Made by a program: the position numbers and the translations under genes. A DNA stretch of 64,000 nucleotides. Source: Streptomyces sp. V2I9. GTDB lineage: Bacteria; Actinomycetota; Actinomycetes; Streptomycetales; Streptomycetaceae. The DNA is taken from the NCBI RefSeq assembly GCF_030817475.1, contig NZ_JAUSZJ010000002.1:1913501-1977500 (forward strand), in the 5' to 3' direction. Positions 48,746 through 64,000 of the stretch are shown one piece after another. Position 1 is the stretch's first letter; each line of letters begins with the position of its first letter. The notes under the pieces were generated by a model that did no database searches, was not told where the DNA came from, and was given only the letters and a program-made list of their open reading frames with translations.

Positions 48746-48804
48746 ACCACGCCTTTCCCCTGCCCTGCCGTCCGCATCTCTTCCCCGTACCTGGGAGTTC
48801 CGTC

Positions 48805-50136
48805 ATGCGCACCAGCCGTCTCACCACCACCGCCGTCGCCGTCGCCGCGATATCGGTGCTCGCCACCGCGTGTACCGGCCAGTCCGAGGCCGGCGCCTCC
48901 GACGACCCGAACGCGAAGACCACGATCAACTTCTGGCACGGCTGGAGTGCTCCCGCCGAGGTGAAGGCGGTCAAGGACAACATCGCCCGGTTCGAGAAGG
49001 CCCACCCGAACATCACGGTGAAGGTCTCCAGCAACATCAACGATGACAAGCTCAACCAGGCGCTGCGCGCGGGCGGTTCGAACGGACCCGACGTGGTCTC
49101 CTCGTTCACCACCTCCAACGTGGGCAAGTTCTGCTCCTCGGGCGCGTTCGCGGACCTGAAGCCGTTCATCGAGAAGTCGAAGCTCGACCTGGAGAAGACC
49201 TTCCCGAAGGTCCTCCTGGGCTACACCCAGTTCGAGGGCAAGCGCTGCGCCCTGCCGCTGCTCACCGACGCCTACGGCCTCTACTACAACAAGGACGCCT
49301 TCGAGAAGGCCGGGATCACCGCCCCGCCGAAGACGATGTCCGAGCTGGCGAGCGTCGCCAAGAAGCTCACGGTCGAGAAGGGTGACAGCTACCAGCAGCT
49401 CGGGTTCATGCCGACCTTCCACGGCTACGAGACCGTCGCCGACCACTACATGGCCTCGTGGGACCACAAGTACTTCGACGAGAACGGCAAGTCCAACGTC
49501 GCCAAGGACCCGGCGTTCGCGGAGATGTTCACGTTCCAGAAGAAGCTCGTCGAGGACCTCGGCGGCTACGGGAAGCTGGAGAAGTACCGGGGCACCTTCG
49601 GTGACGAGTGGGGCGCCAAGCACCCGTTCCACACCGGGCAGGTCGCCATGCAGCTGGACGGCGAGTGGCGGCTCGGCATGGCCGAGGACACCAAGCCCGG
49701 CTTCGAGATCGGTGTCGCTCCGATGCCCGTCGCCGACGACGAGGCCGACAGCTACGGCAAGGGCTTCCTCTCCGGCACCATCGTGGGCATCGCCCCGGCC
49801 AGCAAGAAGCAGAACGCCGCGTGGGAGCTGGTGAAGTACATGACCACGGACACGAAGGCGGTCGTGGAATTCGCCAACGGCATCCGCAACGTGCCCTCCA
49901 CCCTGGAGGCGCTGAAGTCGCCGGACCTGAAGTTCGACCCGCGCTTCAAGACCTTCCTGGACATCGCGCAGCACCCGAAGTCCAGCACGCCCGACGGCGC
50001 CGTCAACGGTGCGGCGTACCAGCTGACCCTCCAGGACTTCGGCTACCAGTACGAGAAGGGCGCGGTGAAGGACCTCCAGGCCGGGCTGGAGAAGACCGCG
50101 AAGCAGATCGACACCGACATCGCCAAGGCCAAGTAG
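48805..50136 (+). CDS. csnE: Sugar ABC transporter solute-binding lipoprotein (CsnE-like)
   Basis: This 443-residue family-1 solute-binding protein has a lipoprotein signal (AVAAISVLATAC, Cys about 23) and the start of the mature fold NFWHGWSAPAEVKAV. It binds a sugar oligomer outside the membrane and delivers it to the two permeases encoded next. In the csn system the ligand is a glucosamine oligosaccharide. GGGAG precedes ATG 48805. It lies 59 bases after csnR. No ATPase is encoded; Streptomyces carbohydrate transporters of this kind share the distant ATPase MsiK. Confidence 0.85.
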   Translation: MRTSRLTTTAVAVAAISVLATACTGQSEAGASDDPNAKTTINFWHGWSAPAEVKAVKDNIARFEKAHPNITVKVSSNINDDKLNQALRAGGSNGPDVVSSFTTSNVGKFCSSGAFADLKPFIEKSKLDLEKTFPKVLLGYTQFEGKRCALPLLTDAYGLYYNKDAFEKAGITAPPKTMSELASVAKKLTVEKGDSYQQLGFMPTFHGYETVADHYMASWDHKYFDENGKSNVAKDPAFAEMFTFQKKLVEDLGGYGKLEKYRGTFGDEWGAKHPFHTGQVAMQLDGEWRLGMAEDTKPGFEIGVAPMPVADDEADSYGKGFLSGTIVGIAPASKKQNAAWELVKYMTTDTKAVVEFANGIRNVPSTLEALKSPDLKFDPRFKTFLDIAQHPKSSTPDGAVNGAAYQLTLQDFGYQYEKGAVKDLQAGLEKTAKQIDTDIAKAK

Positions 50137-50142
50137 CCCTCG

Positions 50143-51084
50143 ATGACGACGCACACACTCCGCTCGAAGCGCCGCAGGTCGGCGCTTCGTACGGCGGCCT
50201 TCATGTCGCCGTGGCTGATCGGGTTCTCGGTCTTCTTCGCGTATCCGATGGTCTCGACGATCTACTTCTCGTTCATGGAGTACGACGGGTTCGGGACGCC
50301 GGTCTTCAACGGCCTGGCGAACTGGACGTACGTCTTCCAGGACTACCCGATGTTCTGGCCCTCGCTGCGCAACACCCTGTGGCTGGTGCTCGTCATGGTC
50401 ACCTGCCGGGTCGTCTTCGGCCTCGGCGTCGGGATGCTGATCACGAGGATCAGGACGGGGGCCGGGGTCTTCCGGACCCTGTTCTACCTGCCCTACCTGG
50501 CTCCGCCGGTCGCCGCGACGCTCGCGTTCGTCTTTCTCCTCAACCCCGGCACCGGGCCCGTCAACGCGATCCTCGGCGACCTGGGACTGCCGACGCCCGG
50601 CTGGTTCAACGACGCCACCTGGTCCAAGCCGGCGCTCACCATGCTCGCGGTCTGGGGCATCGGGGACCTGATGGTCATCTTCATGGCCTCGCTGCTGGAC
50701 GTGCCGAAGGAGCAGTACGAGGCGGCCGAGCTGGACGGTGCGTCCGCCTGGCAGAAGTTCCGCTTCGTGACCCTGCCCAACATCTCGCCCATCGTGCTGT
50801 TCGCGGTGGTGACGGGGGTCATCCAGGCGATGCAGTACTACACGCAGCCCCTGGTGGCCGGGAAGGTCGCCTCCGGAGTCATCGGCGGCTCCGGCCAGTC
50901 CTTCGAACCCGGTTATCCCGACAAGTCGACACTGACGCTTCCCCAGCTCGTCTACAACCTGGGCTTCCAGCGCTTCGACTACGGCGCCGCCTGTGCCGTC
51001 GCTCTCGTCCTGTTCGCCCTGGCCATGGCCTTCACCGCACTGCTGATGCGGGGCCGCAACAACCTGATCTCGGCCGGTGACTGA
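50143..51084 (+). CDS. csnF: Sugar ABC transporter permease (CsnF-like)
   Basis: This 313-residue integral membrane protein has six predicted helices and the cytoplasmic EAA loop EAAELDGASAWQKFRFVTLP, which docks the ATPase. It resembles MalF-type sugar permeases. It starts six bases after csnE and ends three bases before csnG, so the genes are co-translated. Confidence 0.9.
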   Translation: MTTHTLRSKRRRSALRTAAFMSPWLIGFSVFFAYPMVSTIYFSFMEYDGFGTPVFNGLANWTYVFQDYPMFWPSLRNTLWLVLVMVTCRVVFGLGVGMLITRIRTGAGVFRTLFYLPYLAPPVAATLAFVFLLNPGTGPVNAILGDLGLPTPGWFNDATWSKPALTMLAVWGIGDLMVIFMASLLDVPKEQYEAAELDGASAWQKFRFVTLPNISPIVLFAVVTGVIQAMQYYTQPLVAGKVASGVIGGSGQSFEPGYPDKSTLTLPQLVYNLGFQRFDYGAACAVALVLFALAMAFTALLMRGRNNLISAGD

Positions 51085-51087
51085 GCC

Positions 51088-51993
51088 ATGACCCACCTCA
51101 TCGACAAGACCGCGGCCCCTTCCCCGGCGACCGCTCCCCGCACCACCCCCGCCGCACGCACCGCACGCCGCAAGGCGCTGCTGCACTGGATCGCCGTGCA
51201 CTCCCTCGGGGTCGCCGCCGCGCTCTTCTTCGTGCTGCCGTTCGTCTTCGTGGTGCTGACCTCGCTGATGAGCGACCAGCAGGCGCTGACCCGCGACCTC
51301 ACCCCGAACACCTGGGAGTGGGGCAACTACCTTCGGGTCTTCCACACCGACGGCTTCCTGGTCTGGTGGCGCAACACCCTGCTCTACGCGGGCGTGGGCA
51401 CCGTGCTCACCGTCGTCTCGTCCGTCCCGGTGGCGTACGCGCTGGCGAAGTTCCGCTTCCGGGGCCGCAAGCTGTCGCTGATGCTCGTCATCTCGATGAT
51501 GATGCTGCCGCCGCAGGTCGTCATCATCCCGATGTACCTGTTCTGGGCGAAGCAGCTGGACCTCTCCGGCACCCTGTGGCCGCTGATCATCCCGATGGCC
51601 TTCGGCGACGCGTTCTCGATCTTCCTGCTGCGGCAGTTCCTGCTCACCATTCCGAACGAGTACCTGGACGCGGCGAAGGTCGACGGCTGCGGCGAGTTCC
51701 GGACGCTGGTCAAGGTCGTCCTGCCGATGGCCAAGCCCGGCATCGCGGCCATCGCCCTCTTCCAGTTCTTCGCCGCCTGGAACGACTACTTCGGGCCCCA
51801 GATCTACGCCTCGGAGAACCCGGCCGCCTGGACGCTCAGTTACGGCCTGGAGTCGTTCAAAGGCGCGCACCACACCGACTGGAACCTGACCATGGCCGCG
51901 ACCGTACTGGTCATGGCCCCCGTGATCGCCGTCTTCTTCTTCGCCCAGAAGGCATTCGTCGAAGGCGTCACACTGACCGGAGTAAAGGGCTGA
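51088..51993 (+). CDS. csnG: Sugar ABC transporter permease (CsnG-like)
   Basis: This 301-residue MalG-type permease has six helices and the EAA-like loop DAAKVDGCGEFRTLVKVVLP. With CsnF it forms the membrane channel for the oligosaccharide. One base separates its stop from the next start. Confidence 0.9.
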   Translation: MTHLIDKTAAPSPATAPRTTPAARTARRKALLHWIAVHSLGVAAALFFVLPFVFVVLTSLMSDQQALTRDLTPNTWEWGNYLRVFHTDGFLVWWRNTLLYAGVGTVLTVVSSVPVAYALAKFRFRGRKLSLMLVISMMMLPPQVVIIPMYLFWAKQLDLSGTLWPLIIPMAFGDAFSIFLLRQFLLTIPNEYLDAAKVDGCGEFRTLVKVVLPMAKPGIAAIALFQFFAAWNDYFGPQIYASENPAAWTLSYGLESFKGAHHTDWNLTMAATVLVMAPVIAVFFFAQKAFVEGVTLTGVKG

Positions 51994-51994
51994 C

Positions 51995-53260
51995 ATGAAG
52001 CTCGCAGTAGTGGGTGGCGGGTCCACCTACACCCCTGAACTGATCGACGGATTCGCCCGGCTGCGGGACACGCTGCCGATCGAGGAGCTGGTGCTCGTCG
52101 ATCCGGCGGCCGACCGCCTGGAGCTGGTCGGCGGCCTCGCCCGGCGGATCTTCGCCAAGCAGGACCACGCGGGGAGGATCACGACCACGACCGACGTCGA
52201 CGCGGGCGTGGCCGGCGCCGACGCGGTCCTGCTCCAGCTGCGGGTCGGCGGACAGGCCGCGCGCAACCAGGACGAGACCTGGCCGCTGGAGTGCGGTTGC
52301 GTCGGGCAGGAGACCACCGGCGCCGGCGGCCTGGCCAAGGCGCTGCGCACCGTGCCCGTGGTGCTGGACATCGCCGAGCGGGTCCGCCGTGCCAACCCGG
52401 ACGCCTGGATCATCGACTTCACCAACCCCGTCGGCATCGTCACCCGCGCACTCCTCCAGGCCGGGCACAAGGCCGTCGGCCTGTGCAACGTGGCGATCGG
52501 CTTCCAGCGGAAGTTCGCCCGGCTGCTGGACGTGAACCCCTCCGAGGTCCACCTCGACCACGTCGGGCTCAACCACCTGACCTGGGAGCTGGGGGTGCGG
52601 CTCGGCGGCCCGGACGGCGAGGACGTCCTGCCCCGGCTGCTCGCGGAGCACGGCGACGCCATCGCCGGCGACCTCCGGATGGACCGCCGGATCGTGGACC
52701 GGCTCGGCGTCGTCCCCTCGTACTACCTGCGCTACTTCTACGCCCACGACGAGGTGGTGAAGGAGCTGGGCACCAAGCCGTCTCGGGCCGCCGAGGTCGC
52801 GGCGATGGAGAAGGAACTCCTCGCGATGTACGGCGACCCGTCGCTGGACGAGAAGCCCGAGCTGCTGGCGAAGCGCGGTGGCGCGTTCTACTCCGAGGCG
52901 GCGGTGGACCTGGCGGCCTCCCTGCTGGGCGACGGCGGATCACCGGTCCAGGTGGTCAACACGTACAACCGGGGGACCCTGCCGTTCCTCCCGGACGACG
53001 CGGTGATCGAGGTCCAGGCCCGGATCGGACGCGACGGCGCCACGCCGCTGGCCGTACCGGCGCTGGACCCGCTGTACGCCGGTCTGATCGCCAACGTGAC
53101 GGCGTACGAGGACCTCGCCCTGGACGCGGCGCTGCGCGGCGGCCGGGACCGGGTCTTCAAGGCGCTGCTCGCCCACCCGCTGGTCGGCCAGTTCGACTAC
53201 GCCGAGGGGCTCACCGACCGGCTGATCGCGCACAACCGGGAGCACCTGGCGTGGGCGTGA
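51995..53260 (+). CDS. csnH: GH4-family glycosidase (CsnH-like, 6-phospho-beta-glucosidase annotation group)
   Basis: This 421-residue cytosolic enzyme uses NAD+ and a divalent metal. It has the Rossmann motif VVGGGSTYTPELIDGF, FTNPVGIVT, and the metal ligands Cys164 (GLCNVAIG) and His194 (VGLNHLTW). GH4 enzymes cleave by an oxidation-elimination mechanism. Databases tend to call such proteins 6-phospho-beta-glucosidase, but in an ABC (non-PTS) operon the substrate is more likely an unphosphorylated glucosamine oligomer. The stop overlaps the kinase start. Confidence 0.88.
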   Translation: MKLAVVGGGSTYTPELIDGFARLRDTLPIEELVLVDPAADRLELVGGLARRIFAKQDHAGRITTTTDVDAGVAGADAVLLQLRVGGQAARNQDETWPLECGCVGQETTGAGGLAKALRTVPVVLDIAERVRRANPDAWIIDFTNPVGIVTRALLQAGHKAVGLCNVAIGFQRKFARLLDVNPSEVHLDHVGLNHLTWELGVRLGGPDGEDVLPRLLAEHGDAIAGDLRMDRRIVDRLGVVPSYYLRYFYAHDEVVKELGTKPSRAAEVAAMEKELLAMYGDPSLDEKPELLAKRGGAFYSEAAVDLAASLLGDGGSPVQVVNTYNRGTLPFLPDDAVIEVQARIGRDGATPLAVPALDPLYAGLIANVTAYEDLALDAALRGGRDRVFKALLAHPLVGQFDYAEGLTDRLIAHNREHLAWA

Positions 53261-54261
53261 AGGTGTCGGTCCTCGCCATCGACGCGGGCAACAGCAAGAC
53301 CGACGTGGCACTGATCGGCGAGGACGGCACGGTGCTGGCCACGGCGCGCGGCGGCGGTTTCCAGCCGCCCGTGGTCGGGGCGGAGGCCGCGATCGACGTC
53401 CTGGCCGAGGCGCTGGAGCGGGCGGTCGCGGAACTGCCGGAGACCGGCGGTCCGCGCGCCACGCTCTCCTCGCTCGCCCCGCCCGGCTCGGCCGTGCACC
53501 TCTCCGCGTGCCTGGCCAACGCCGACCTGCCCGTCGAGGAGGCCGAGTTGGCGGCGGCCCTGGAGGCCCGCGGCTGGGCCTCCTCGGTGGAGGTGCGCAA
53601 CGACACCTTCGCGATCCTGCGCGCCGGGGTGGACGAGCCCCGCGGCGTCGCGGTGGTGTGCGGGGCCGGGATCAACTGCGTGGGCATGACCCCGGACGGG
53701 CGGACCGCCCGCTTCCCCGCCATCGGACGGATATCCGGCGACTGGGGCGGCGGTGCGGGGCTCGCCGAGGAGGCGCTGTGGTTCGCCGCGCGCGCCGAGG
53801 ACGGGCGGGGCGAGGCGTCCGAGCTGGCCCGCGCGCTGCCGGGCCACTTCGGGCTGGGCTCGATGTACGCGCTGATCGAGGCGCTGCACCGGGGCGCGAT
53901 CCCGATGGCGCGGCGGCACGAGCTGACGCCGGTCCTGTTCGCCACGGCCGCGGCCGGGGACGCGGTGGCCCTGGCGCTGGTGGAGCGGCTGGCCGACGAG
54001 GTGGTGGCGATGGCCTCGGTCACGCTGGCCCGGCTCGGTCTGCTGGAGGAGGAGGTTCCGGTGCTGCTGGGCGGCAGTGTGCTGGCAGCCCGCCATCCGC
54101 AGCTCGACGACCGGATCACCGCGCTGCTCGCGGCCCGCGCCCCGAAGGCCGAGGTGCGCGTGGTCTCCGAGCCGCCGGTGCTGGGCGCGGCGTTGCTGGG
54201 GCTCGACCGTACGGGGGCGGGGCCGGAGGTCCACCGGAGGCTGCGCGGGCAGTACGCCTGA
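53251..54261 (+). CDS. csnK: BadF-type sugar kinase (CsnK-like, glucosamine/N-acetylglucosamine kinase)
   Basis: This about 336-residue ASKHA kinase has the phosphate-1 loop VLAIDAGNSKTDVALIGEDG, VVCGAGINCVGMTPDG and GDWGGGAGLAEEA, then VLLGGSVLAA near the C-terminus, as in the BadF/BcrAD and N-acetylglucosamine kinase group. It would phosphorylate the monosaccharide released by the GH4 enzyme. Three in-frame GTG codons (53251, 53257, 53263) compete; 53251 lies eight bases from GGGAG, while 53257 gives a classic GTGA overlap with the GH4 stop. A strong terminator follows. Confidence 0.85.
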   Translation: MGVKVSVLAIDAGNSKTDVALIGEDGTVLATARGGGFQPPVVGAEAAIDVLAEALERAVAELPETGGPRATLSSLAPPGSAVHLSACLANADLPVEEAELAAALEARGWASSVEVRNDTFAILRAGVDEPRGVAVVCGAGINCVGMTPDGRTARFPAIGRISGDWGGGAGLAEEALWFAARAEDGRGEASELARALPGHFGLGSMYALIEALHRGAIPMARRHELTPVLFATAAAGDAVALALVERLADEVVAMASVTLARLGLLEEEVPVLLGGSVLAARHPQLDDRITALLAARAPKAEVRVVSEPPVLGAALLGLDRTGAGPEVHRRLRGQYA

Positions 54262-54291
54262 GCGGCAGGGGCCGGTCGGTGCCCGGCGGGG

Positions 54292-54322
54292 CGTCCCCTC
54301 ACGCGGTGTGCGTGAGGGGACG
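54292..54322 (+). terminator. Terminator of the csn operon
   Basis: CGTCCCCTCACGC (54292-54304) pairs perfectly with GCGTGAGGGGACG (54310-54322), followed by CTTCTTG. Confidence 0.85.
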
Positions 54323-54545
54323 CTTCTTGTTCGTTCCCCGTACGGGTGAACGCCTGGCGTACGAGGGGCTCGGGGGAACCGATCGGGCTTCCGGAACGTG
54401 TACCTGATGGGGAGTCCGTTCGCTTATGGGGATGTATCCGGGCACGTTGCGCCGCTTGCCTTGATCGGCCGCGCCTGCCCTGGTCGAATGCGGGGACTGA
54501 TGACGGGGACGGGGACCCACCGTCGGTGACCGAGGGGGAGGTCGA

Positions 54546-55934
54546 GTGACACACCCGCCGAGCGGCGGCTCGCAGACCTTGCGCGCACCGGACCCGGTGT
54601 CCGCGCCCGTCGCCGTGCCCGAGCGGCCCCGCGCGCTCCGTGCCGTCCAGGCCGAACGGCTGCGCGCGGCGGCGACGACCGAGCCCGGCCGGCTCCGGAT
54701 CATCGGGGCCGTCCTGGCGCTGCTGGTCGTGGCGTTCGGCGCGGTGACCACCCTGGAGGTCTCGCAGCGCGCCGCCGCCGCCGACGACGTGGTCGGCCGC
54801 AGCCAGCCGCTCAGCGCCGACGCGGCGGACATCTACCGCTTCCTGGCGGACGCGGACACGACGGCGGCCGGTGGGTTCCTCGCGGGAGCGCAGGAGCCCG
54901 AGGCCGTGCAGGAGCGGTACCGCGAGGACATCGAGGAGGCGGCCCGACTGCTGGTGAAGGCCTCGGGGAACACCGCGTCCGACAGCGCCTCCAGCCGTGA
55001 GATAGCCACCCTCAACAGGCTGCTCCCGGTCTACACGGGCCTGGTCGAGCGCGCCCGTGCCAACAACCGCCAGGGCCTCCCGCTGGGCGGCGCCTATCTC
55101 CGGTACGCGAACCAGAAGATGGCCGGTGAGATGCTGCCGGCCGCCGAGCGGCTGTACGCGGCGGAGACGGGGCGGCTGGAGTCGGACTCCGCCGACGCCC
55201 GGCGCCTGCCCCTCCTGTCGGTCGGCGCGGGGATCGTGGTGCTCGGCGCTCTGGTGTGGATGCAGCGGCGCACCTACCGCCGGACCAACCGGGTGCTGAA
55301 CCACGGGCTGCTGGCGGCGACGGCCGCCGCGTCGGTGGTGCTGCTCTGGCTGACCGTGGGGCACACCGTGGCCCGTACGGAGCTGCGTTCGGCGATGACG
55401 CACGGCCAGGCGTCCCTGGATGTGCTCAACGACGCCCGGATCAGTTCCCTCAAGGCGCGGGCCAACGAGAATCTCACCCTGGTGGCGCGGGGTGCGGTGC
55501 TGACCCCCGACGGCTCCGCCGACCAGTACGAGGCGGACTACGTCACGGGGATGAAGGCGCTGAAGGACCGGCTGGAGAAGGCCGGCCGGCTCGCGGACGA
55601 CGCGAGCGGGAGAACGCCGGTGGCCGAGGCTTCCGAGGGCGTGGCCCAGTGGCGGACCCGCCACCGCGAGGCGCGTGCCACGGACGACCGGGGCGACTAC
55701 GAGGGCGCTCTGGAGCAGATCATCGGAACGGGGAAGTCCACCGGGCAGTCCTTCCGGCAGGTGGACGGCGCGCTGGAGAAGGCGCTGGCGCATGAGCAGG
55801 ACGAGTTCACCTCGGCGGCGGAGGACGGGCGCGGGGCTCTGCGCGGCCTGCCGACGGGCGCCGCGGCACTGGCGGTCCTGGGGGCCGCGGCCGTGATCGC
55901 CGGGGTCAACCGCAGGCTCTCGGAGTACCGGTGA
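54546..55934 (+). CDS. glnX: GlnX-like membrane sensor with two extracellular helical modules
   Basis: This 462-residue protein has four membrane helices (about 52-72, 222-240, 255-277, 430-448) and two similar extracellular all-helical modules between helices 1-2 and 3-4. No HAMP, kinase or other signalling domain follows. This is the arrangement of GlnX, the sensor encoded beside glnH and pknG in mycobacteria, where it relays binding of Glu/Asp by GlnH to the kinase. Here the N-terminal about 50 residues are cytoplasmic and Arg/Pro-rich. GTG 54546 follows GGGGGAGG. Its stop overlaps the glnH start. Confidence 0.8.
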   Translation: MTHPPSGGSQTLRAPDPVSAPVAVPERPRALRAVQAERLRAAATTEPGRLRIIGAVLALLVVAFGAVTTLEVSQRAAAADDVVGRSQPLSADAADIYRFLADADTTAAGGFLAGAQEPEAVQERYREDIEEAARLLVKASGNTASDSASSREIATLNRLLPVYTGLVERARANNRQGLPLGGAYLRYANQKMAGEMLPAAERLYAAETGRLESDSADARRLPLLSVGAGIVVLGALVWMQRRTYRRTNRVLNHGLLAATAAASVVLLWLTVGHTVARTELRSAMTHGQASLDVLNDARISSLKARANENLTLVARGAVLTPDGSADQYEADYVTGMKALKDRLEKAGRLADDASGRTPVAEASEGVAQWRTRHREARATDDRGDYEGALEQIIGTGKSTGQSFRQVDGALEKALAHEQDEFTSAAEDGRGALRGLPTGAAALAVLGAAAVIAGVNRRLSEYR

Positions 55935-56968
55935 GAGGGGCAGCGATGAGCAGGTCGAAGGGCCGTCCCGTGCGCCGCCTGCGCGGCTGGGGCGGCGTCA
56001 CCGGGATGGCGGCGGCCTGCGCCTTCACCGCCGCGGTCACCCTGCTGCCGCTGGCCCAGCACGGCCGCGTGGACCTGTCGGGCGGCGGGGTGGTGGCGGC
56101 CGACCGGGCCCGCGCCGAGGCGTGCACCGAGCCGGAGGCGAGTCTGCCCCCGTCGGGCGGTGGCGGCCCGGCCGTCGACCGGATCAAGCGGCGCGGCAAG
56201 CTGATCGCGGGCGTCGACCAGAACAGCTTCCGCTGGGGCTACCGCAATCCGGAGAGCCGCCGGCTCGAAGGGTTCGACATCGATCTGGTGCGGGCCATCG
56301 CCGAGGACGTCCTGGGCGACCCGGACGCGGTGGTCTTCCGCGCGATCCCCACCAACCAGCGCATCGCCGCCCTGGAGCACGACCGGGTCGATGTCGTCGT
56401 GCGGACGATGACGATCAACTGCAAGCGGCTCGAACAGGTCTCCTTCTCCACCGCCTACTTCCAGACCGGGCAGCAGGTGCTCGCCCCGAAGGATTCGGGG
56501 ATCACCGGGTACGACTCCTCGCTGAAGGGCAGGCGGGTCTGCTCGGCCGAGGGCTCCACGGCGTACGAGGCGCTGGAGAAGCAGTCGTTCGGCGCGCTGT
56601 ACAAGGACGACTACGACGGCACCGGGCGTGATCCGGACCGGCTGACCGTGCCCAACCAGCTGGACTGCCTGGTGCGGCTCCAGCTGGGCGAGGTGGACGC
56701 GGTCGTCACGGACAACGCGCTGGCGGCCGGTCAGGCGGCGCAGGACCCGGCGGTGGAGCTCAAGGGGAAGGCCCCGTTCACCACCGAGTACTACGGCGTC
56801 GCGGCGAAGAAGGGCGCCGACGACCTGGTGGCGCGGGTGAACAAGGTCCTCGTCGACTACCGGGCGGGCGGCGACGACAGCGCCTGGATGACGTCCTACC
56901 GGCGGTGGCTGGCGGCCGGACTGCCCGGCATATCCGGTCCGCCCGCCCCCGAGTACCGCGGCGGCTGA
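55931..56968 (+). CDS. glnH: GlnH-like amino-acid-binding protein (SBP family 3)
   Basis: This 345-residue protein has an N-terminal signal/anchor helix (GGVTGMAAACAFTAAVTLLPLA) and a family-3 solute-binding fold: LIAGVDQNSFRWGYRNPESR, GFDIDLVRAIAEDVLGDP, VDVVVRTMTINCKRLEQVSFS, GEVDAVVTDNALAAG. Family-3 proteins bind polar amino acids. No ABC permease or ATPase is adjacent, so it serves sensing, as GlnH does in mycobacteria (Asp/Glu). The lipobox of mycobacterial GlnH is not evident. GTG 55931 overlaps the glnX stop; ATG 55946, six bases after GAGAGGGG, is an equally good start. Confidence 0.85.
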   Translation: MRGAAMSRSKGRPVRRLRGWGGVTGMAAACAFTAAVTLLPLAQHGRVDLSGGGVVAADRARAEACTEPEASLPPSGGGGPAVDRIKRRGKLIAGVDQNSFRWGYRNPESRRLEGFDIDLVRAIAEDVLGDPDAVVFRAIPTNQRIAALEHDRVDVVVRTMTINCKRLEQVSFSTAYFQTGQQVLAPKDSGITGYDSSLKGRRVCSAEGSTAYEALEKQSFGALYKDDYDGTGRDPDRLTVPNQLDCLVRLQLGEVDAVVTDNALAAGQAAQDPAVELKGKAPFTTEYYGVAAKKGADDLVARVNKVLVDYRAGGDDSAWMTSYRRWLAAGLPGISGPPAPEYRGG

Positions 56969-57075
56969 CCCGGTTCGCCCCCACGCGGGCCGGGGCGGGC
57001 GGACCGGAGCCAGAACGCAGCAGACCGATCCCGCCGGGCCTCACCGGCCCCGCGGGGAGAGCGGAGAGGTGATCG

Positions 57076-58428
57076 ATGGGCGTCGCGGGATCCTTCCCCG
57101 GCTTCGCGGAAAGGCCCCCCGGCCCGGTCATGGACCGGGAGGAGGCGGACCGTGCGCTGGCCCGGCTCGGCGCGGAGCACGAGGCGATCGAGACCTCGCT
57201 CCTCGCGCTCCAGGACCACGCCGGCCGCCGGCTGCTGGAGGGCGCCGAGCTGACCGGCGTCACACGGGAGCGCTGGGCCACGACCGAGCAGTCGATCACC
57301 CTGCTGTGGGGGTACTTCGACGCGTATGCCGGGGCCCTGGCGCAGGCCAGGGAGATCCGGGAGCGCCGCCGCCACCCGAACCGGGACGACCTTCTGGCGC
57401 TGACGGAGCTGCTGCGCGGCGAGGCGGTCACCGTCGCCAACGCGGGGGCGGCGGTGCCGCCCCCGGTCGCGGGCCCGGCCCGGCTCTCCGAGCGGTTCTC
57501 GCTCCAGGAGCTGGTGGCCCGGATGAACGAGCTGTACGCCAGGTCGCTGGACATGGTCGTCGCCTCCGACGCGGTCTGGTCGGCGCTGCCCGCCCGGATC
57601 GACCTGCTCGCGGCCGAGCTGCACCGGACGCGTTCGCTGGCGTACTCGGTGGGGGTGCGGCCCGGTGAGCATCCGGCCGGGGACGACCTGGCGGAGATCA
57701 CCGAGGAGCTGACCACGCTGCGGGTGCAGGTGATCTCCGACCCGCTGGCGTTCTGGCTGCCGGGGCCGGGCAGCGCCGCGCCGGGCGGCGGCCGTCCCGA
57801 CACCTCGCGCTACGACCGGGCGGCCCGGGCCCTGGAGGACGTGCGGCGGGAGATCGAGGCGGTCCTCGCGGTCCGGCAGGACGCGGAGGCGCGCCTGGTG
57901 CGGCTGCGGGACGTGCTCTCGCGGGCCGACCGGACCCTGACGGAGGCGCGGGCGGCGCGGGGCGAGGTGCTGGCCAAGATCGCCGCCTCCGAGGTGCCCG
58001 CCGTCAGCGGGCCGCCGACCGCCCTCCAGGAGCGGCTGGCGACGGCGTCGGACCACCGCAGGCACGCCCAGTGGCACCGGCTCTCCCCGCTGCTGGAGGC
58101 GCTGGAGCAGGAGGCCGAGGACGAACTGCTCCGCGCCCGCGCATCGTTGACCTCGGTGACCGCGCCGCTGGCGGTCCGTGCGGAGCTGCGCGGCCGGCTG
58201 GACGCGTACAAGGCGAAGGTGGCCCGGCACGGCCTGGCGGAGGACCCGGTGCTGATCGAGCGGTACGACGCGGCCCGCCGCATGCTGTGGAGCGCGCCGT
58301 GCGATCTGCGCGCCGCCGAGCAGGCCGTCCTGCGCTACCAGCACGCGGTCGCGGACGCGCTGACGCCTCGCCGGTCCGAGGAGCCGGAGGACCGCCGGGG
58401 CGCGGGCGGACAGGGGGAGACACGATGA
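57076..58428 (+). CDS. Coiled-coil protein of unknown function in the PknG locus
   Basis: This 450-residue soluble protein is nearly all helix: heptad-rich segments (REEADRALARLGAEHEAIETSLLALQ; ALEDVRREIEAVLAVRQDAEARL; VRLRDVLSRADRTLTEARAA) alternate with Pro/Gly breaks (about 235-250). It has no signal, membrane segment or recognised domain. GGAGAGG precedes ATG 57076, and its TGA overlaps the pknG ATG (ATGA). Position and coupling suggest an adaptor or scaffold between the GlnX/GlnH sensor and the kinase. The C-terminal tail is charged and disordered. Confidence 0.75.
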   Translation: MGVAGSFPGFAERPPGPVMDREEADRALARLGAEHEAIETSLLALQDHAGRRLLEGAELTGVTRERWATTEQSITLLWGYFDAYAGALAQAREIRERRRHPNRDDLLALTELLRGEAVTVANAGAAVPPPVAGPARLSERFSLQELVARMNELYARSLDMVVASDAVWSALPARIDLLAAELHRTRSLAYSVGVRPGEHPAGDDLAEITEELTTLRVQVISDPLAFWLPGPGSAAPGGGRPDTSRYDRAARALEDVRREIEAVLAVRQDAEARLVRLRDVLSRADRTLTEARAARGEVLAKIAASEVPAVSGPPTALQERLATASDHRRHAQWHRLSPLLEALEQEAEDELLRARASLTSVTAPLAVRAELRGRLDAYKAKVARHGLAEDPVLIERYDAARRMLWSAPCDLRAAEQAVLRYQHAVADALTPRRSEEPEDRRGAGGQGETR

Positions 58429-61250
58429 GTACACGGTGCCAGCGCCCTTCGTGCGAGGGGTCCTACGAGGACATGGGCGGCGGTGAGCTGTACTGCGACA
58501 CCTGCGGCCTGGCACCGGTCGTCTCGCCGACGGGCATGGTCTCCTCGCCGCCCACGGGGATCGCCCAGGGCGGGCGGGCGGCCGGCCGGGACAGTTCCTC
58601 GCAGCGGTCCGGCTCCCGCGCCTCCGCCCGGTCCTCGTCCCGTTCGTCGACCTCGCGCCGCTCGGTCTCCGGCCGGCTGTCGCGCTCGCTGTCGGGGGTG
58701 TCCGTCTCCCGTTCGGTCTCGGTGCGTTCCTCGGGCTCGTCCTCGACCGCCTCGGCGCGGGGGCGGCTCGGCGCCGGGCTGGTCCAGGTGCCGGACGTGC
58801 CCCGGCACGATCCGCGCACGGCGGTGATGGAGCATCCGGAGGTGCCGGAGCGGAAGCGGTTCTGCTCCCGTTCGGACTGCGGCGCGCCGGTGGGCCGGGC
58901 GCGCGGTGAGCGGCCGGGCCGCACCGAGGGGTTCTGCACCAAGTGCGGGCACCCCTATTCCTTCGTGCCGAAGCTGAGCGGCGGCGACATCGTGCACGGC
59001 CAGTACGAGGTCGTGGGCTGCCTGGCGCACGGCGGGCTCGGCTGGGTGTATCTCGCGGTGGACCGGGCCGTCTCGGACCGCTGGGTGGTCCTCAAGGGCC
59101 TGCTGGACACCGGCGACCAGGACGCGATGGCCGCCGCGATCTCCGAGCGCCGCTTCCTCGCCGAGATCGAGCACGCCAACATCGTGCGGATCTACAACTT
59201 CGTCGAGCACCTGGACCAGCGGACCGGTTCGCTGGACGGCTACATCGTGATGGAGTACGTCGGAGGCAAGTCCCTCAAGGAGATCGCCAACGAGCGCCGC
59301 ACCCCGGCCGGGAAGCGCGACCCGCTGCCGGTGGAGCAGGCGTGCGCGTACGGGATCGAGGCGCTGGAGGCGCTGGGCCATCTGCACAGCCGCAACCTGC
59401 TCTACTGCGACTTCAAGGTCGACAACGCCATCCAGAGCGAGGACCAGCTCAAGCTGATCGACATGGGCGCGGTGCGCCGGATGGACGACGACGAGTCGGC
59501 GATCTACGGCACGGTGGGCTACCAGGCCCCGGAGGTCGCGGAGCTGGGCCCGTCGGTCGCCTCCGATCTGTACACGGTGGCCCGGACGCTGGCGGTCCTG
59601 ACCTTCGACTTCCAGGGCTACACGAACGTGTACGTGGACGCGCTGCCCGACCCGGACACGATCGAGGTGTTCCGCACCTACGAGTCGTTCTACCGGCTGC
59701 TGGTGCGGGCCACCGACCCGGATCCGGGCCGCCGTTTCGCCTCGGCGGCGGAGATGGCCGAGCAGTTGACGGGGGTGCTGCGGGAGGTCGTGGCGTTGCG
59801 GACCGGCCGGCCCCGCCCGGCGCTGTCGACGCTGTTCGGCGCCGAACTGCGGGTGATGGACACGGAGTTGTTCGCCCCACAGGCGGACGACGTCTCGGTG
59901 CTGGGCGGCCGGGACACCGGCGCGCGGCGCGGGTGGTCCGGCCGCCGCGGGCGCGGTGGCCGGCCGGTCCCCGGCACTCCGGCGCAGGGCCCGACGGGAC
60001 ACCTCCCCGCCCCGGCGCGGCCGGTCGCGCCGGGGGCCGTGTCGTCGGCGGTGGCCGGGGCGCTGCCGGTGGGCGCGCAGCCGCACGGTCCGGCGGGGGG
60101 CCACCCGTCCGGTCCGGGGGCCGCTCCGCTGGCCGTGGAGCCGACCCATGTCCGGGGCCCCGCACCGGCCGGCGGGGCTCCTCCTCCGTACGCGGCCCCG
60201 GCGCACGCTCCTGTTCCCCCTCCCCGGACGGCCGGGCCTGCGGCGGGTCCGTACGTCGTGCCGGCCGGCCCGTGCGGTCCCTCCGGAGGCGTCCGGCTCG
60301 CCCTGTTCGACGCGCGGGCCACCTCGTTGGCGCTGCCGGTCCCGCGGGTCGACGCGACGGACCCGAACGCCGGTTTCCTGGCCGGTCTCATGGCCTCCGC
60401 CCCGGCCGAGCTGATCGCCGCCCTGCACACGGTCCCGGTCCCCTCGCTGGAGACCCGGCTGCGGGAGCTGCGGGCCCGGCTGGAGATGCGGGAGCTGGAC
60501 GCGGCCTCCAGCACGCTGTCCACTCTGGAGGGTGAACACCCCGACGACTGGCGGGTGGTCTGGTATCGCGGGATCAGCTCGCTGGTGACCGGCGACCACG
60601 AGTCGGCGGCGCTCTCCTTCGACGCGGTCTACGACGCGTTCCCCGGCGAGACGGCGCCCAAGCTGGCGTTGGGGATCTGCGCGGAGGTGCTGGGCCAGCT
60701 GGACAACGCCGCCGAGTACTACCGCCTGGTGTGGGCGACCGATCCGGGGTTCGTCAGCGCCGCGTTCGGCCTGGCACGGGTGCAGATCGCGGCCGGTCGG
60801 CGGGGGGCCGCGGTGGCCACCCTGGAGTCGGTTCCGGAGACGTCGGTCCACTGCACGGCGGCGCGGGTGGCGGCCGTACGGGCGCGGCTGCGCGAGCGCT
60901 CCCACCACGAACCGCTGGGGGCCGATCTGACGGCAGCCGGGGACCAGGTGGCGGCGTTGGCCGCCGTCGGCCTGGACCCGGTGCGGCGCGAACGGTTGTC
61001 GGCCGAGGTACTGGGCAAGGCGCTGGACTGGGTACTCTCCGGTAGTCCCGGTGTCCAGGGGCCGGACGGACCGGCCGCCGGTACGCCGGGTGGCGCGCGG
61101 AAGCTGCTCGGCGCCGAACTGGACGAGCGGGGCCTGCGGTTCGGTCTCGAACGCTCGTACCGCATGCTCGCCCGGCTCGCGCAGCAGGGCGACGAGAGGA
61201 TCGAACTGGTGGAGCGGGCCAACCGTTTCCGCCCCCGGACGTGGGTGTGA
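58425..61250 (+). CDS. pknG: PknG-type Ser/Thr protein kinase with two zinc knuckles and TPR
   Basis: This 941-residue soluble kinase has a zinc knuckle at the N-terminus (Cys5, Cys10, Cys24, Cys27), a Ser/Arg-rich disordered linker (about 51-113), and a rubredoxin-like knuckle (Cys147, Cys152, Cys171, Cys174) as in mycobacterial PknG. The kinase domain follows: CLAHGGLGWVYLAVD, Lys224 (VVLKGL), Asp329 (LLYCDFKVDN), IDMGAV instead of DFG, and GTVGYQAPEV. A Pro/Gly/Ala linker (about 500-630) leads to a C-terminal TPR domain (about 670-941). In mycobacteria PknG controls glutamate metabolism through FHA proteins and responds to GlnX/GlnH. The first zinc knuckle and the SR linker are additions relative to that protein as I remember it. 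Its stop overlaps or nearly overlaps the phosphatase start. Confidence 0.93.
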   Translation: MSTRCQRPSCEGSYEDMGGGELYCDTCGLAPVVSPTGMVSSPPTGIAQGGRAAGRDSSSQRSGSRASARSSSRSSTSRRSVSGRLSRSLSGVSVSRSVSVRSSGSSSTASARGRLGAGLVQVPDVPRHDPRTAVMEHPEVPERKRFCSRSDCGAPVGRARGERPGRTEGFCTKCGHPYSFVPKLSGGDIVHGQYEVVGCLAHGGLGWVYLAVDRAVSDRWVVLKGLLDTGDQDAMAAAISERRFLAEIEHANIVRIYNFVEHLDQRTGSLDGYIVMEYVGGKSLKEIANERRTPAGKRDPLPVEQACAYGIEALEALGHLHSRNLLYCDFKVDNAIQSEDQLKLIDMGAVRRMDDDESAIYGTVGYQAPEVAELGPSVASDLYTVARTLAVLTFDFQGYTNVYVDALPDPDTIEVFRTYESFYRLLVRATDPDPGRRFASAAEMAEQLTGVLREVVALRTGRPRPALSTLFGAELRVMDTELFAPQADDVSVLGGRDTGARRGWSGRRGRGGRPVPGTPAQGPTGHLPAPARPVAPGAVSSAVAGALPVGAQPHGPAGGHPSGPGAAPLAVEPTHVRGPAPAGGAPPPYAAPAHAPVPPPRTAGPAAGPYVVPAGPCGPSGGVRLALFDARATSLALPVPRVDATDPNAGFLAGLMASAPAELIAALHTVPVPSLETRLRELRARLEMRELDAASSTLSTLEGEHPDDWRVVWYRGISSLVTGDHESAALSFDAVYDAFPGETAPKLALGICAEVLGQLDNAAEYYRLVWATDPGFVSAAFGLARVQIAAGRRGAAVATLESVPETSVHCTAARVAAVRARLRERSHHEPLGADLTAAGDQVAALAAVGLDPVRRERLSAEVLGKALDWVLSGSPGVQGPDGPAAGTPGGARKLLGAELDERGLRFGLERSYRMLARLAQQGDERIELVERANRFRPRTWV

Positions 61251-61252
61251 AG

Positions 61253-62806
61253 ATGTCTCAGAGCCACCAGCAGCCCGCCGTGTCGCGGTGCCCCGGCTGC
61301 GAGGAGCCGCTGGACGCGGCCGATCTGTTCTGCGGAGCGTGCGGCTACGACCTCTCGGCCGTACCGGCGCGGCCCGGCGACCGGCCCACGATGGCGATCA
61401 CCGTGCCCCCTGCCGGTCCGTCGGCACCGGAGCCCGGCGCGGCTGCGGGGGCGTCGCCCCGCGAGGCCGAGGCGGTGCGGTGGCCCGCCGCGGCGGAGAC
61501 CGACAGCTCGGATGTCCCGGCGCCGGTGCACAGCCCGGCGGACGTGCCGGGAACGGACTCGGACGGCAGGCCGCTGTCCGGACCGGCGGCGGGACCGGAG
61601 GCGGCCGCAGGGGGCTCGCCCCGCGAGGCCGAGGCCGTCCGTGTACGCCACGACCACCGGGCGGCCCCGGACGGGGCGGCGCCCGAGGAAGGCGCCCCGT
61701 CCGCCCTCGGCGCGGCGGCCGCGGCCGGCACCGCGTCCCCGGAGGACGCGGAATCCCCGGAGGGCGCGGCAGTTCCCGGCAGCTCCGGGGATTCCGACGA
61801 CTTCCCGTTGGCCGCGCCCGACCCCCGTACGGCGGAACACGCGCCCGCCTCCCCGGCCGCACCCGCCTCCGGGACGAAGGTCTGTGTGGCGTGCCGCTCC
61901 GGCCGGGTGGACCCGGACGGCTACTGCGAGAACTGCGGGCACGCACAGCCCCGTGAGCGCGACCACATGGAGCACGAACTCGACGCGGTGGCCGCCGTCA
62001 GCGACCGGGGGCTGCGCCACCACCGCAACGAGGACTCCTTCGCCCTCTCCTCGACCGCGCTGCCGGACGGTTCGTCCGCCGTCGTCGCGATCGTCTGCGA
62101 CGGGGTCTCCTCGGCGAGCCGCCCCGACGAGGCGTCGGCCGCCGCCGCGAACGCCGCCAACGAGGCGCTCCTGGCCTCCCTCCCCCGTGGTACGCACCCG
62201 CAGCAGGCGATGCACGAGGCGATCGTCGCCGCGTCCGAGGCGGTCAACGCCCTGGCGCAGGAACCGGCCGGAGCGAGGGAGCCCGACACGCACCGCCATC
62301 AGAACGCCCCGGCCTGCACCCTGGTCGGCGCGGTCATGGCGGGCGACCTGCTGATCATCGGCTGGGTCGGCGACAGCCGGGCCTACTGGGTGCCGGAGGA
62401 CCGGGCCCGGCCCACCGCCCGGCTCACCGAGGACGACTCCTGGGCCGCGCAGATGGTGGCGGCCGGGCTGATGAACGAGGCGGAGGCGTACGCGGACGAC
62501 CGCGCCCACGCCATCACCGGCTGGCTCGGCGCCGACGCGTACGAACTGGAGCCGCACACCGCCGCGTTCAAGCCGGACCGGCCGGGCCTGGTGGTCGTGT
62601 GCACGGACGGCCTGTGGAACTACGCGGAGTCCGCCGAGGAGATGGCCGCCGCCGTCCCGGCCGATGCCCGCGAGCGTCCGCTGCACGCCGCCCGGGTGCT
62701 GGTCGGTCACGCCCTCGACGGCGGGGGCCACGACAACGTAACGGTGGCACTGATGCCGTTCGCCGTACGGCCGCAAGGGGCAGGATCGGCCCGCGAAACC
62801 GTGTGA
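61253..62806 (+). CDS. PP2C-family Ser/Thr phosphatase with two zinc ribbons
   Basis: This 517-residue protein begins with a zinc ribbon (Cys13, Cys16, Cys27, Cys30), followed by about 170 disordered Ala/Pro/Glu-rich residues, a second ribbon (Cys211, Cys214, Cys225, Cys228) and a PP2C catalytic domain (about 235-505). Metal-binding residues are Asp261 (HRNEDSF), Asp283 (CDGVSS), the DG of VVCTDGLWNY and the GGHDNVT end. No membrane segment is present. It would remove phosphates placed by PknG. The start is uncertain: GTG 61241, GTG 61247 (overlapping the pknG stop) and ATG 61253 are in frame; I give the ATG. It is 17 bases from the VWA gene. Confidence 0.9.
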   Translation: MSQSHQQPAVSRCPGCEEPLDAADLFCGACGYDLSAVPARPGDRPTMAITVPPAGPSAPEPGAAAGASPREAEAVRWPAAAETDSSDVPAPVHSPADVPGTDSDGRPLSGPAAGPEAAAGGSPREAEAVRVRHDHRAAPDGAAPEEGAPSALGAAAAAGTASPEDAESPEGAAVPGSSGDSDDFPLAAPDPRTAEHAPASPAAPASGTKVCVACRSGRVDPDGYCENCGHAQPRERDHMEHELDAVAAVSDRGLRHHRNEDSFALSSTALPDGSSAVVAIVCDGVSSASRPDEASAAAANAANEALLASLPRGTHPQQAMHEAIVAASEAVNALAQEPAGAREPDTHRHQNAPACTLVGAVMAGDLLIIGWVGDSRAYWVPEDRARPTARLTEDDSWAAQMVAAGLMNEAEAYADDRAHAITGWLGADAYELEPHTAAFKPDRPGLVVVCTDGLWNYAESAEEMAAAVPADARERPLHAARVLVGHALDGGGHDNVTVALMPFAVRPQGAGSARETV

Positions 62807-62823
62807 ACCTCAAGGAGCCGACC

Positions 62824-64000
62824 ATGGCCAACTTCTCCAAGTCGAACGTGCCGCAGTTCTCCGTCGAGGTGTACCAGAACGCGTTCCTGCCCGAGGGAGG
62901 CCGCGAGGTCAACGCCATCGTGACCGTCACCTCGACGGGCGGCGGCACCACCGGCGGGATACCCCTGGCGGATTCGGGGGCCGCGTACGGGGCGGGGCGG
63001 GGGCCGAGCGCCGCCGTCGTGCTGATGGTCGACTGCTCGGGCTCGATGGACTACCCGCCGACGAAGATGCGCAACGCGCGTGACGCGACGGCGGCGGCCG
63101 TCGACACCCTGCGCGACGGCACCCTGTTCGCGGTGGTCGCCGGGACGCATGTCGCCCGGGACGTCTATCCGGGCGACGGGCGGCTCGCGGTCGCCGACGC
63201 GCACACGAAGGCACAGGCCAAGGAGGCCCTGCGCAGGCTCAGCGCCGGCGGGGGCACCGCGATCGGCACCTGGCTGGGACTGGCCGACCGGCTGCTGGGC
63301 TCGGCCGACGCGGCCATCCGGCACGGCATCCTGCTGACCGACGGCCGCAACGAGCACGAGGCGCCCGAGGATCTGCGGGCGGCGCTGGACGCCTGCGCGG
63401 GCCGGTTCACCTGCGACGCCCGCGGGGTGGGCACCGACTGGGAGGTGAAGGAGGTCACCGGCATCGCCGCCGCCCTCCTCGGCACGGCCGACATCGTCGC
63501 CGACCCCTCGGGCCTGGCCGCGGACTTCACGCGGATGATGGAGAACGCCATGGACAAGGAGGTCGCGGACGTGGCGCTGCGGCTCTGGACTCCGGTGGGG
63601 GTGGAGATCCGGTTCGTGAAGCAGGTCGCGCCGACCGTGGCGGACCTGACCGGGCGGCGCACCGAGGCGGGCCCCCGCGCCGGGGACTACCCGACCGGTT
63701 CGTGGGGCGACGAGTCACGGGACTACCACGTGTGCGTACGGGTTCCGGAGGCCGGGATCGGCCAGGAGATGCTGGCGGCACGGGTCTCCCTGATCCTGCC
63801 CGACCCCTCGGGCACGGGCGTGCCGCAGCCCCTGTCGCAAGGGCTCGTACGGGCGGTGTGGACGGACGACATGGCGGCGTCCACCTCGATCAATCCGCAT
63901 GTCGCGCACTACACGGGCCAGGCCGAGCTGGCGCAGGTCATCCAGCAGGGCCTGGAAGCGCGCAAGTCGGGCGATTTCCACGGCGCGACGGCCAAGCTGG
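62824..64000 (+). CDS. von Willebrand factor A domain protein (3' end outside window)
   Basis: The frame is open from ATG 62824 (AAGGAG upstream) to the end of the window, at least 392 residues. After a beta-rich N-terminal segment (FSVEVYQNAFLPEGGREVNAIVTVT) comes a VWA domain with an intact metal-ion site: DCSGSM (Asp70, Ser72, Ser74), the Thr of GGGTAIGT and the Asp of LLTDGRN. A second beta domain follows (VALRLWTPVGVEIRFVKQV ... VCVRVPEAGIGQEML), then the start of a helix (AELAQVIQQGLEARKSGDFHGATAKL). Paired with a PP2C and a kinase it recalls the VWA-phosphatase-kinase triads of bacterial Ter systems. It has no signal peptide and is likely cytosolic. Confidence 0.9.
   Translation, partial: MANFSKSNVPQFSVEVYQNAFLPEGGREVNAIVTVTSTGGGTTGGIPLADSGAAYGAGRGPSAAVVLMVDCSGSMDYPPTKMRNARDATAAAVDTLRDGTLFAVVAGTHVARDVYPGDGRLAVADAHTKAQAKEALRRLSAGGGTAIGTWLGLADRLLGSADAAIRHGILLTDGRNEHEAPEDLRAALDACAGRFTCDARGVGTDWEVKEVTGIAAALLGTADIVADPSGLAADFTRMMENAMDKEVADVALRLWTPVGVEIRFVKQVAPTVADLTGRRTEAGPRAGDYPTGSWGDESRDYHVCVRVPEAGIGQEMLAARVSLILPDPSGTGVPQPLSQGLVRAVWTDDMAASTSINPHVAHYTGQAELAQVIQQGLEARKSGDFHGATAKL

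Follow-up and report, generated by a model that had tools for sequence, protein, structure and literature searches.

The best-described relative of the system considered here is the GlnX–GlnH–PknG operon of Mycobacterium and Corynebacterium (PMC6069109, PMC9769921), which is stated to be conserved to Streptomyces (PMC6069109). There, GlnH is the binding protein for acidic amino acids and GlnX passes the signal to the kinase PknG, probably via the PknG TPR domain, the proposed docking site of GlnX (PMC6069109, PMC8546545). A second relevant system is the Arn module of the archaeon Sulfolobus, where ArnA, a zinc-finger and FHA protein, enters a tight state with ArnB that is phosphorylation-driven and nutrient-dependent (PMC6509490, PMC12852372, PMC7472852). 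We analysed a stretch of 64,000 nucleotides (nt) from Streptomyces sp. V2I9 (contig NZ_JAUSZJ010000002.1, positions 1,913,501 to 1,977,500 of the forward strand), hereafter the window, which ends in a gene cassette containing glnX, glnH and pknG together with genes for a coiled-coil protein (cc), a PP2C phosphatase and a VWA protein. We propose, with a probability of about 0.5, that this cassette is the full-length form of the actinobacterial GlnH–GlnX–PknG amino-acid-sensing system, with a phosphorylation switch at the C-terminal tail of the VWA protein.

The cassette comprises the following genes.

54546..55934, + strand: glnX, GlnX-family membrane signal transducer
55931..56968, + strand: glnH, solute-binding protein with no transporter; overlaps glnX by 4 nt
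57076..58428, + strand: cc, all-helical protein with no family assigned; 107-nt gap after glnH
58425..61250, + strand: pknG, extra N-terminal zinc ribbon, rubredoxin, kinase and TPR; overlaps cc by 4 nt
61241..62806, + strand: pp2c, PP2C domain preceded by two N-terminal zinc ribbons; overlaps pknG by 10 nt
62824..64179, + strand: vwa, VWA protein, probably of ArnB type; 17-nt gap after pp2c, final 179 nt beyond the window
64310-65807 on the window scale (L003:1811-3308), + strand: fha, the seventh gene, two N-terminal zinc ribbons and FHA; outside the window

An earlier note on this DNA had described a module of the first six genes. The coordinates and domain matches agree with it on the order, shared strand and identities of the six, and these are indeed conserved together, but the note missed the seventh gene, fha, which lies beyond the window. 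This gene is co-directional with the others, starts 130 nt past vwa and encodes a Gln/Pro-rich linker joining the ribbons to the FHA domain. In the source assembly its frame shifts near 64985-64995 (window scale). Since the ribbon and FHA domains are each intact in their own frame and relatives, including S. californicus, have a single open frame, the shift is likely to be an assembly error or a strain-specific change within the repetitive linker; ribbon and FHA share one frame in 103 of the 111 FHA open reading frames examined.

PknG_TPR was searched in three genome samples, and profiles derived from the loci served to annotate seven families in the 20-kb stretches around the matches. All seven genes, in the single order glnX-glnH-cc-pknG-pp2c-vwa-fha, were found at 53 of the 55 named Streptomyces loci with enough flank. 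A class sample of 247 genomes yielded 121 PknG_TPR loci; within 8 kb of a PknG_TPR match lay 63 of the 70 cc matches and 57 of the 79 VWA_3_C matches in these genomes, where ~0.2% was expected (the cc scan used a profile built from a closer set rather than from all 17 diverse cc rows). Full cassettes occurred in groups f1, f59, f71, f70, f66, f7 and f86. The cc of f66, f7 and f86 is divergent, and the gene order of f70 is cc-pknG-pp2c-vwa-fha-glnX-glnH. Protein kinship suggests that f3 is Mycobacteriaceae, f59 Catenulisporaceae, f70 Pseudonocardiaceae and f7 Nocardioidaceae-like. We regard it as very likely that the seven-gene cassette is conserved; the presence of cc, PP2C and VWA genes beside pknG in related genomes, on which the earlier note had staked its reading, was found. 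At the Streptomyces locus L155 (genome G449) the cassette is partly deleted, with PknG, GlnX, GlnH and VWA undetected, and at L156 (G330) it is broken in many frames.

The Mycobacteriaceae-like group gave a different picture, as only one of the 27 f3 loci (L157) carried VWA and cc, and the rest nearly always consisted of glnX-glnH-pknG only. The genome of L157, G454, has three such loci (L157-L159): the complete seven-gene cassette, the three-gene operon that is usual in f3, and an additional glnX-glnH-pknG copy (L158). In a tree of the kinase and TPR regions, built without an outgroup root, the f3 three-gene PknGs grouped beside L157, nested among full-cassette PknGs. A single origin of the three-gene PknGs was rejected, the constrained tree having a log-likelihood 609 lower with an approximately unbiased (AU) test p of 6e-10, a value that is optimistic because the test set was picked after the first tree had been seen. 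The rejection of a single clade implies that the three-gene form arose more than once, and we hold this repeated origin to be likely. That it came about by loss is the simplest reading and a probable one, since full cassettes surround the three-gene form and partial ones exist (L048, L155, L160-162, L164 and L165); repeated gain is formally possible. The textbook glnX-glnH-pknG operon thus looks like a stripped-down form of a larger cassette. The comparison does not support the idea in the earlier note that two designs had been merged at this locus, as several families have the larger cassette as their common form, and the three-gene form of mycobacteria sits nested within the PknG tree and has a repeated origin.

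The identities of GlnX and PknG are firm. GlnX scored 484 bits against the GlnX-family model NF058618 (cut-off 250) and 198 bits, below the cut-off of 780, against the narrower mycobacterial-type equivalog NF041460. PknG has the rubredoxin, kinase and TPR arrangement (PF16919, 112 bits; PF00069, 88 bits; PF16918, 289 bits), and its closest solved structure is 2pzi (548 bits). GlnH carries an SBP_bac_3 domain (1.6e-23), and among PDB chains it is nearest to those of M. tuberculosis GlnH, 6h1u (158 bits) and 6h2t, the best other protein reaching 116 bits. The Streptomyces protein keeps the equivalents of M. tuberculosis Arg147, Thr162, Arg169 and Asp250, with Ser164 replaced by Thr. The side-chain contacts to Asp/Glu in M. 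tuberculosis GlnH are Arg147, Thr162 and Trp232 (PMC6069109), and Trp232 is Gln in Streptomyces and Tyr in f70, with Trp found only in f3 and f90 loci. Given this substitution, and as Asp/Glu specificity has been predicted within Actinomycetales only (PMC6069109), the ligand of Streptomyces GlnH is not necessarily Asp/Glu.

Zinc ribbons recur through the cassette. PknG has an extra one at its N-terminus, CQRPSCEGSYEDMGGGELYCDTCG, which was present at 86 of the 88 full-cassette loci vs one of the 11 minimal three-gene loci, as counted by sequence pattern with rubredoxins excluded by eye. At most loci the PP2C and FHA proteins carry two ribbons apiece. The ArnA ribbon docks onto unphosphorylated ArnB (PMC12852372), and by analogy the ribbons of the cassette may serve docking. 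A possible link between the PknG ribbon and VWA was dropped, as VWA-less loci still carry the ribbon. The phosphatase is recognized by PF13672 (1.7e-13) and NF033484 (105 bits), and the metal-site motifs RNEDSF, CDGVSS, GDSRAY, TDGLWN and GGHDN are present by inspection.

The cc protein had no family above cut-off in Pfam, NCBIfam, PADLOC or PHROGs. It has a conserved C-terminus (ELRGRLxAY...LWSAPCDL) and an AlphaFold model with a mean confidence score (pLDDT) of 88 that is helical almost throughout, and a PDB fold search with this model gave no match better than E 0.44 and no function from fold. The earlier note had put forward cc as the missing link between GlnX and PknG, and the placement of its gene in Streptomyces, where it follows glnH and overlaps the next gene, pknG, by 4 nt, would suit such a relay. 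However, GlnX–PknG coupling operates without cc in mycobacteria and corynebacteria (PMC6069109, PMC9769921), and cc is missing from the mycobacterial-type loci. In f70, cc remains beside pknG with glnX-glnH at the opposite end, and locus L152 encodes cc, a rubredoxin-type TPR-less kinase, PP2C, VWA and FHA with neither GlnX nor GlnH. The gene content of L152 indicates that cc belongs with the kinase–phosphatase–VWA–FHA core, and together with the f70 order and the mycobacterial coupling it argues against cc as a sensor–kinase relay. Thus cc is a poor candidate for that role, which we consider very unlikely. The joint absence of TPR, GlnX and GlnH at L152 also fits the published proposal that the TPR domain is the GlnX dock. 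L152 belongs to a second cassette type in group f71 (L152-L154 and L171) with PP2C–VWA–FHA and without GlnX, GlnH or the PknG TPR; at L153, L154 and L171, where pp2c-vwa-fha is present, no PknG-type kinase, GlnX or GlnH was detected in the 20-kb stretch.

We then consider the proteins of the putative switch. The VWA protein has a VWA_3_C domain (1.5e-22), an intact metal-ion-dependent adhesion site (MIDAS) and the C-terminal tail STKTVR. It matched PDB entry 4fx5 over its full length at 473 bits, an ortholog-level match; 4FX5 is the Catenulispora acidiphila product Caci_2163 and is reported to have the same three-domain architecture as the ArnB paralog vWA2 (PMC6509490). The VWA protein of the cassette may accordingly contain the beta-sandwich and C-terminal helical bundle of the ArnB type. 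The same structure has served as a stand-in for the VWA domain of human calcium-channel alpha2delta1 in docking (PMC9776037). The VWA tail lies past the helical region with the consensus DEMxLDTxSTKTVR, in which S443 and T446 were invariant in 18 diverse orthologs. The fha product has an FHA domain (1.5e-16) whose phosphothreonine-site residues G49 R50, S73 and N96 G97 are invariant. When the 80 named Streptomyces records are set aside, a tail of the form S-[TV]-x-T was present at 42 of the 44 VWA loci that bear FHA and at none of the nine FHA-less ones, seven of which have a C-terminal zinc ribbon in its place; a Fisher test on this table gives p 1e-8 but disregards descent, and the value is not usable as a probability. 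Since most of the tailless cases belong to one paralogous group, the association is suggestive only. A comparison of independent pairs on the PknG tree takes descent into account. In it, joint changes of FHA and VWA were seen in 6.3 of 9 pairs, with none in opposite directions (median p 0.03); for FHA and PP2C the figure was 5.0 of 9 (p 0.06), and for FHA and the PknG ribbon 3.6 of 9 (median p 0.125, not significant). Finally, the VWA profile matched ArnB (8s05_A, 5.7e-7) and the FHA profile matched ArnA (8s05_C, 4.7e-7), two chains of one complex. Two side observations concern the VWA protein. At the paralogous pknG-vwa pairs L024, L025, L059-L062 and L170 a zinc ribbon takes the place of the STKT tail at its C-terminus, with no FHA or PP2C; and one S. 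rimosus VWA protein is reported as phosphorylated in published phosphoproteomes, although it could not be mapped to locus or site.

From these features we propose the following mechanism. Active PknG would phosphorylate the conserved C-terminal S-x-x-T tail of the VWA protein. The FHA protein, pre-docked through its zinc ribbons, would bind the phosphorylated tail and the complex would tighten, and the ribbon-tagged PP2C would reverse the phosphorylation. The helical cc protein may be a scaffold or effector of the kinase–PP2C–VWA–FHA core rather than a link to GlnX, and the VWA–FHA branch would act alongside a GarA/OdhI branch, whose probable ortholog sits elsewhere in the genome. This specific VWA-tail/FHA switch, predicted from sequence, we put forward tentatively, at somewhat less than an even chance. 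With similar reserve, it is possible that PknG in many actinobacteria drives an ArnA/ArnB-type phospho-switch that spans the divide between archaea and bacteria, with the ribbon-tagged PP2C as its dedicated phosphatase; the GarA-only output of the mycobacterial kinase would then be what remains once this branch has been lost.

Several observations weigh against the proposed switch. The tail–FHA association is confounded by descent, as the tailless VWAs come mostly from paralogous PknG loci, and the tail is absent at two FHA-bearing loci, L046 and L053. In f70, VWA has been lost at three loci (L160-162) that retain FHA and PP2C, so the FHA protein must have a different partner there. The ArnA and ArnB profile matches are at the level of large superfamilies, GarA and a plant FHA protein outscoring ArnA and two other VWA proteins outscoring ArnB, and the Sulfolobus Arn phosphatase is of the PP2A type whereas that of the cassette is a PP2C. 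For these last two reasons we do not class the cassette as an Arn module: the kinship of its VWA/FHA pair to ArnA/ArnB is architectural, and in sequence it appears to reach them only at superfamily level. An AlphaFold model of the VWA protein from a Streptomyces-only alignment was poor (pLDDT 48) and was discarded, and a literature search found no phosphorylation, binding or expression data on these Streptomyces proteins.

A broader question is whether the seven genes act together. They could instead represent two separate pathways at one locus, GlnH–GlnX–PknG acting on GarA/OdhI and an unrelated PP2C–VWA–FHA–cc set under other kinases, with a neighbourhood that is historical. In keeping with this, a GarA/OdhI-like protein is encoded elsewhere in the genome (C2:629227-629559, L066), scoring 190.9 bits, slightly below the cut-off of 200. 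It has an N-terminal zinc ribbon followed by a SETTST motif; to our knowledge, mycobacterial GarA has no such ribbon. The L152 core with its TPR-less kinase, the loci L153, L154 and L171 described above, and the ability of the mycobacterial-type pathway to function without the additional genes (PMC6069109) point in the same direction. However, the association lasts across several families and through the f70 reordering, the reading frames overlap at cc/pknG and pknG/pp2c, and the distribution of the extra PknG ribbon follows the full cassette. In addition, the pknG-vwa pair persists at paralogous loci without PP2C, cc or FHA (L024, L025, L037 and L059-L062). Taken together, we consider two independent pathways unlikely and find it rather probable that the cassette works as a single functional pathway.

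The earlier note had also connected the locus with the VWA (TerY)-containing triads of Ter stress systems, and a Ter-like or defence-type kinase–PP2C–VWA triad acting in stress or phage defence would account for the adjacency of these three genes, as in the Ter triad, and for the matches of PADLOC kinase models to the kinase domain. These kinase matches are generic, however, and the VWA, PP2C, FHA and cc proteins had no PADLOC match. No TerY_C match was found in the VWA protein; none was found in the genome either, although the genome search also found none in controls. Moreover, the cassette is near-universal and in one order in the sampled Streptomyces, whereas defence islands are patchy. 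The Ter connection is therefore not supported, and we consider a Ter-like or defence-type triad very unlikely.

The surroundings of the cassette are as follows. Upstream, at 48187-54261 of the window and on the same strand, lie genes for a sugar-type ABC transporter (binding protein and two permeases) together with a BadF-type kinase gene and one for a GH4-like glycosidase, which are probably a separate unit. One further feature lies in the gap.

54288..54326, + strand: hairpin, 18-pair stem, in the spacer that separates glnX from the upstream gene; from a pattern scan

The hairpin may be a module boundary separating the sugar-uptake genes, but it is weak, as the scan found one where 1.2 were expected, so that such hairpins are no commoner than chance. 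Downstream (L003:3348-11255 onward) come a truncated-globin-like gene, genes for an FtsX-like ABC exporter and, on the opposite strand, a PCMT-type methyltransferase gene.

The PknG kinase of tuberculosis bacteria has been studied intensively, and the cassette may bear on its dedicated phosphatase, its full partner set and the route from GlnX. Should the seven-gene form prove to be the fuller one, Streptomyces would offer candidate partners, natural deletion series, one example being the joint absence of TPR and GlnX/GlnH, and a concrete candidate phosphosite. If the proposal is true, a bacterial nutrient sensor would be tied to an archaeal nutrient switch via a shared architecture, and 4FX5 would gain a biological context. 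The GlnX–GlnH–PknG operon including its occurrence in Streptomyces, the archaeal phosphatase/FHA/vWA operons, the similarity of 4FX5 to an ArnB paralog and the kinase–PP2C–vWA neighbourhoods are already published (PMC6069109, PMC7016017, PMC6509490, PMC7159879). The present contribution lies in bringing these together, by describing the extended cassette and how widely it occurs, by showing that the short form probably arose repeatedly, and by proposing a testable VWA-tail/FHA/PP2C switch. No paper on the extended operon, or joining its parts to PknG, was found in the literature searched, which is not proof of absence.

Compared with known systems, the cassette resembles the Sulfolobus ArnA–ArnB–ArnC–PP2A module (PMC6509490, PMC7472852, PMC12852372) in its ArnB-type VWA protein (as reported for 4FX5), the adjoining zinc-ribbon FHA protein, a kinase with TPR-like repeats, a phosphatase and a nutrient input. 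It differs in having two ribbons rather than one on the FHA protein and a membrane amino-acid sensor with no archaellum, and the archaeal phosphosites sit in a helical bundle, whereas the tail site of the cassette is predicted. An archaeal operon recognized through comparative genomics (PMC7016017) likewise places genes of these three functional classes (vWA, zinc-ribbon FHA and phosphatase) side by side, but its phosphatase is calcineurin-like and it has no PknG or GlnX. The kinase–PP2C–vWA neighbours of GAP1-N2 systems (PMC7159879) and the Ter-type triads have the same three genes adjacent, with a different kinase, no FHA partner reported and, unlike the VWA protein of the cassette in the Ter case, TerY_C. 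GarA/OdhI is likewise an FHA protein downstream of PknG, and its Streptomyces copy shares the N-terminal ribbon; however, the OdhI model gave the FHA protein of the cassette no more than 25 bits, and the GarA/OdhI ortholog is probably the protein encoded elsewhere in the genome. Closest of all is the mycobacterial and corynebacterial operon (PMC6069109, PMC9769921), with the same GlnX family, a transporterless GlnH and a TPR-bearing PknG encoded adjacently and co-directionally, to which Streptomyces adds cc, PP2C, VWA, the zinc-ribbon FHA protein and the extra PknG ribbon, together with a Gln at the position of Trp232 in GlnH.

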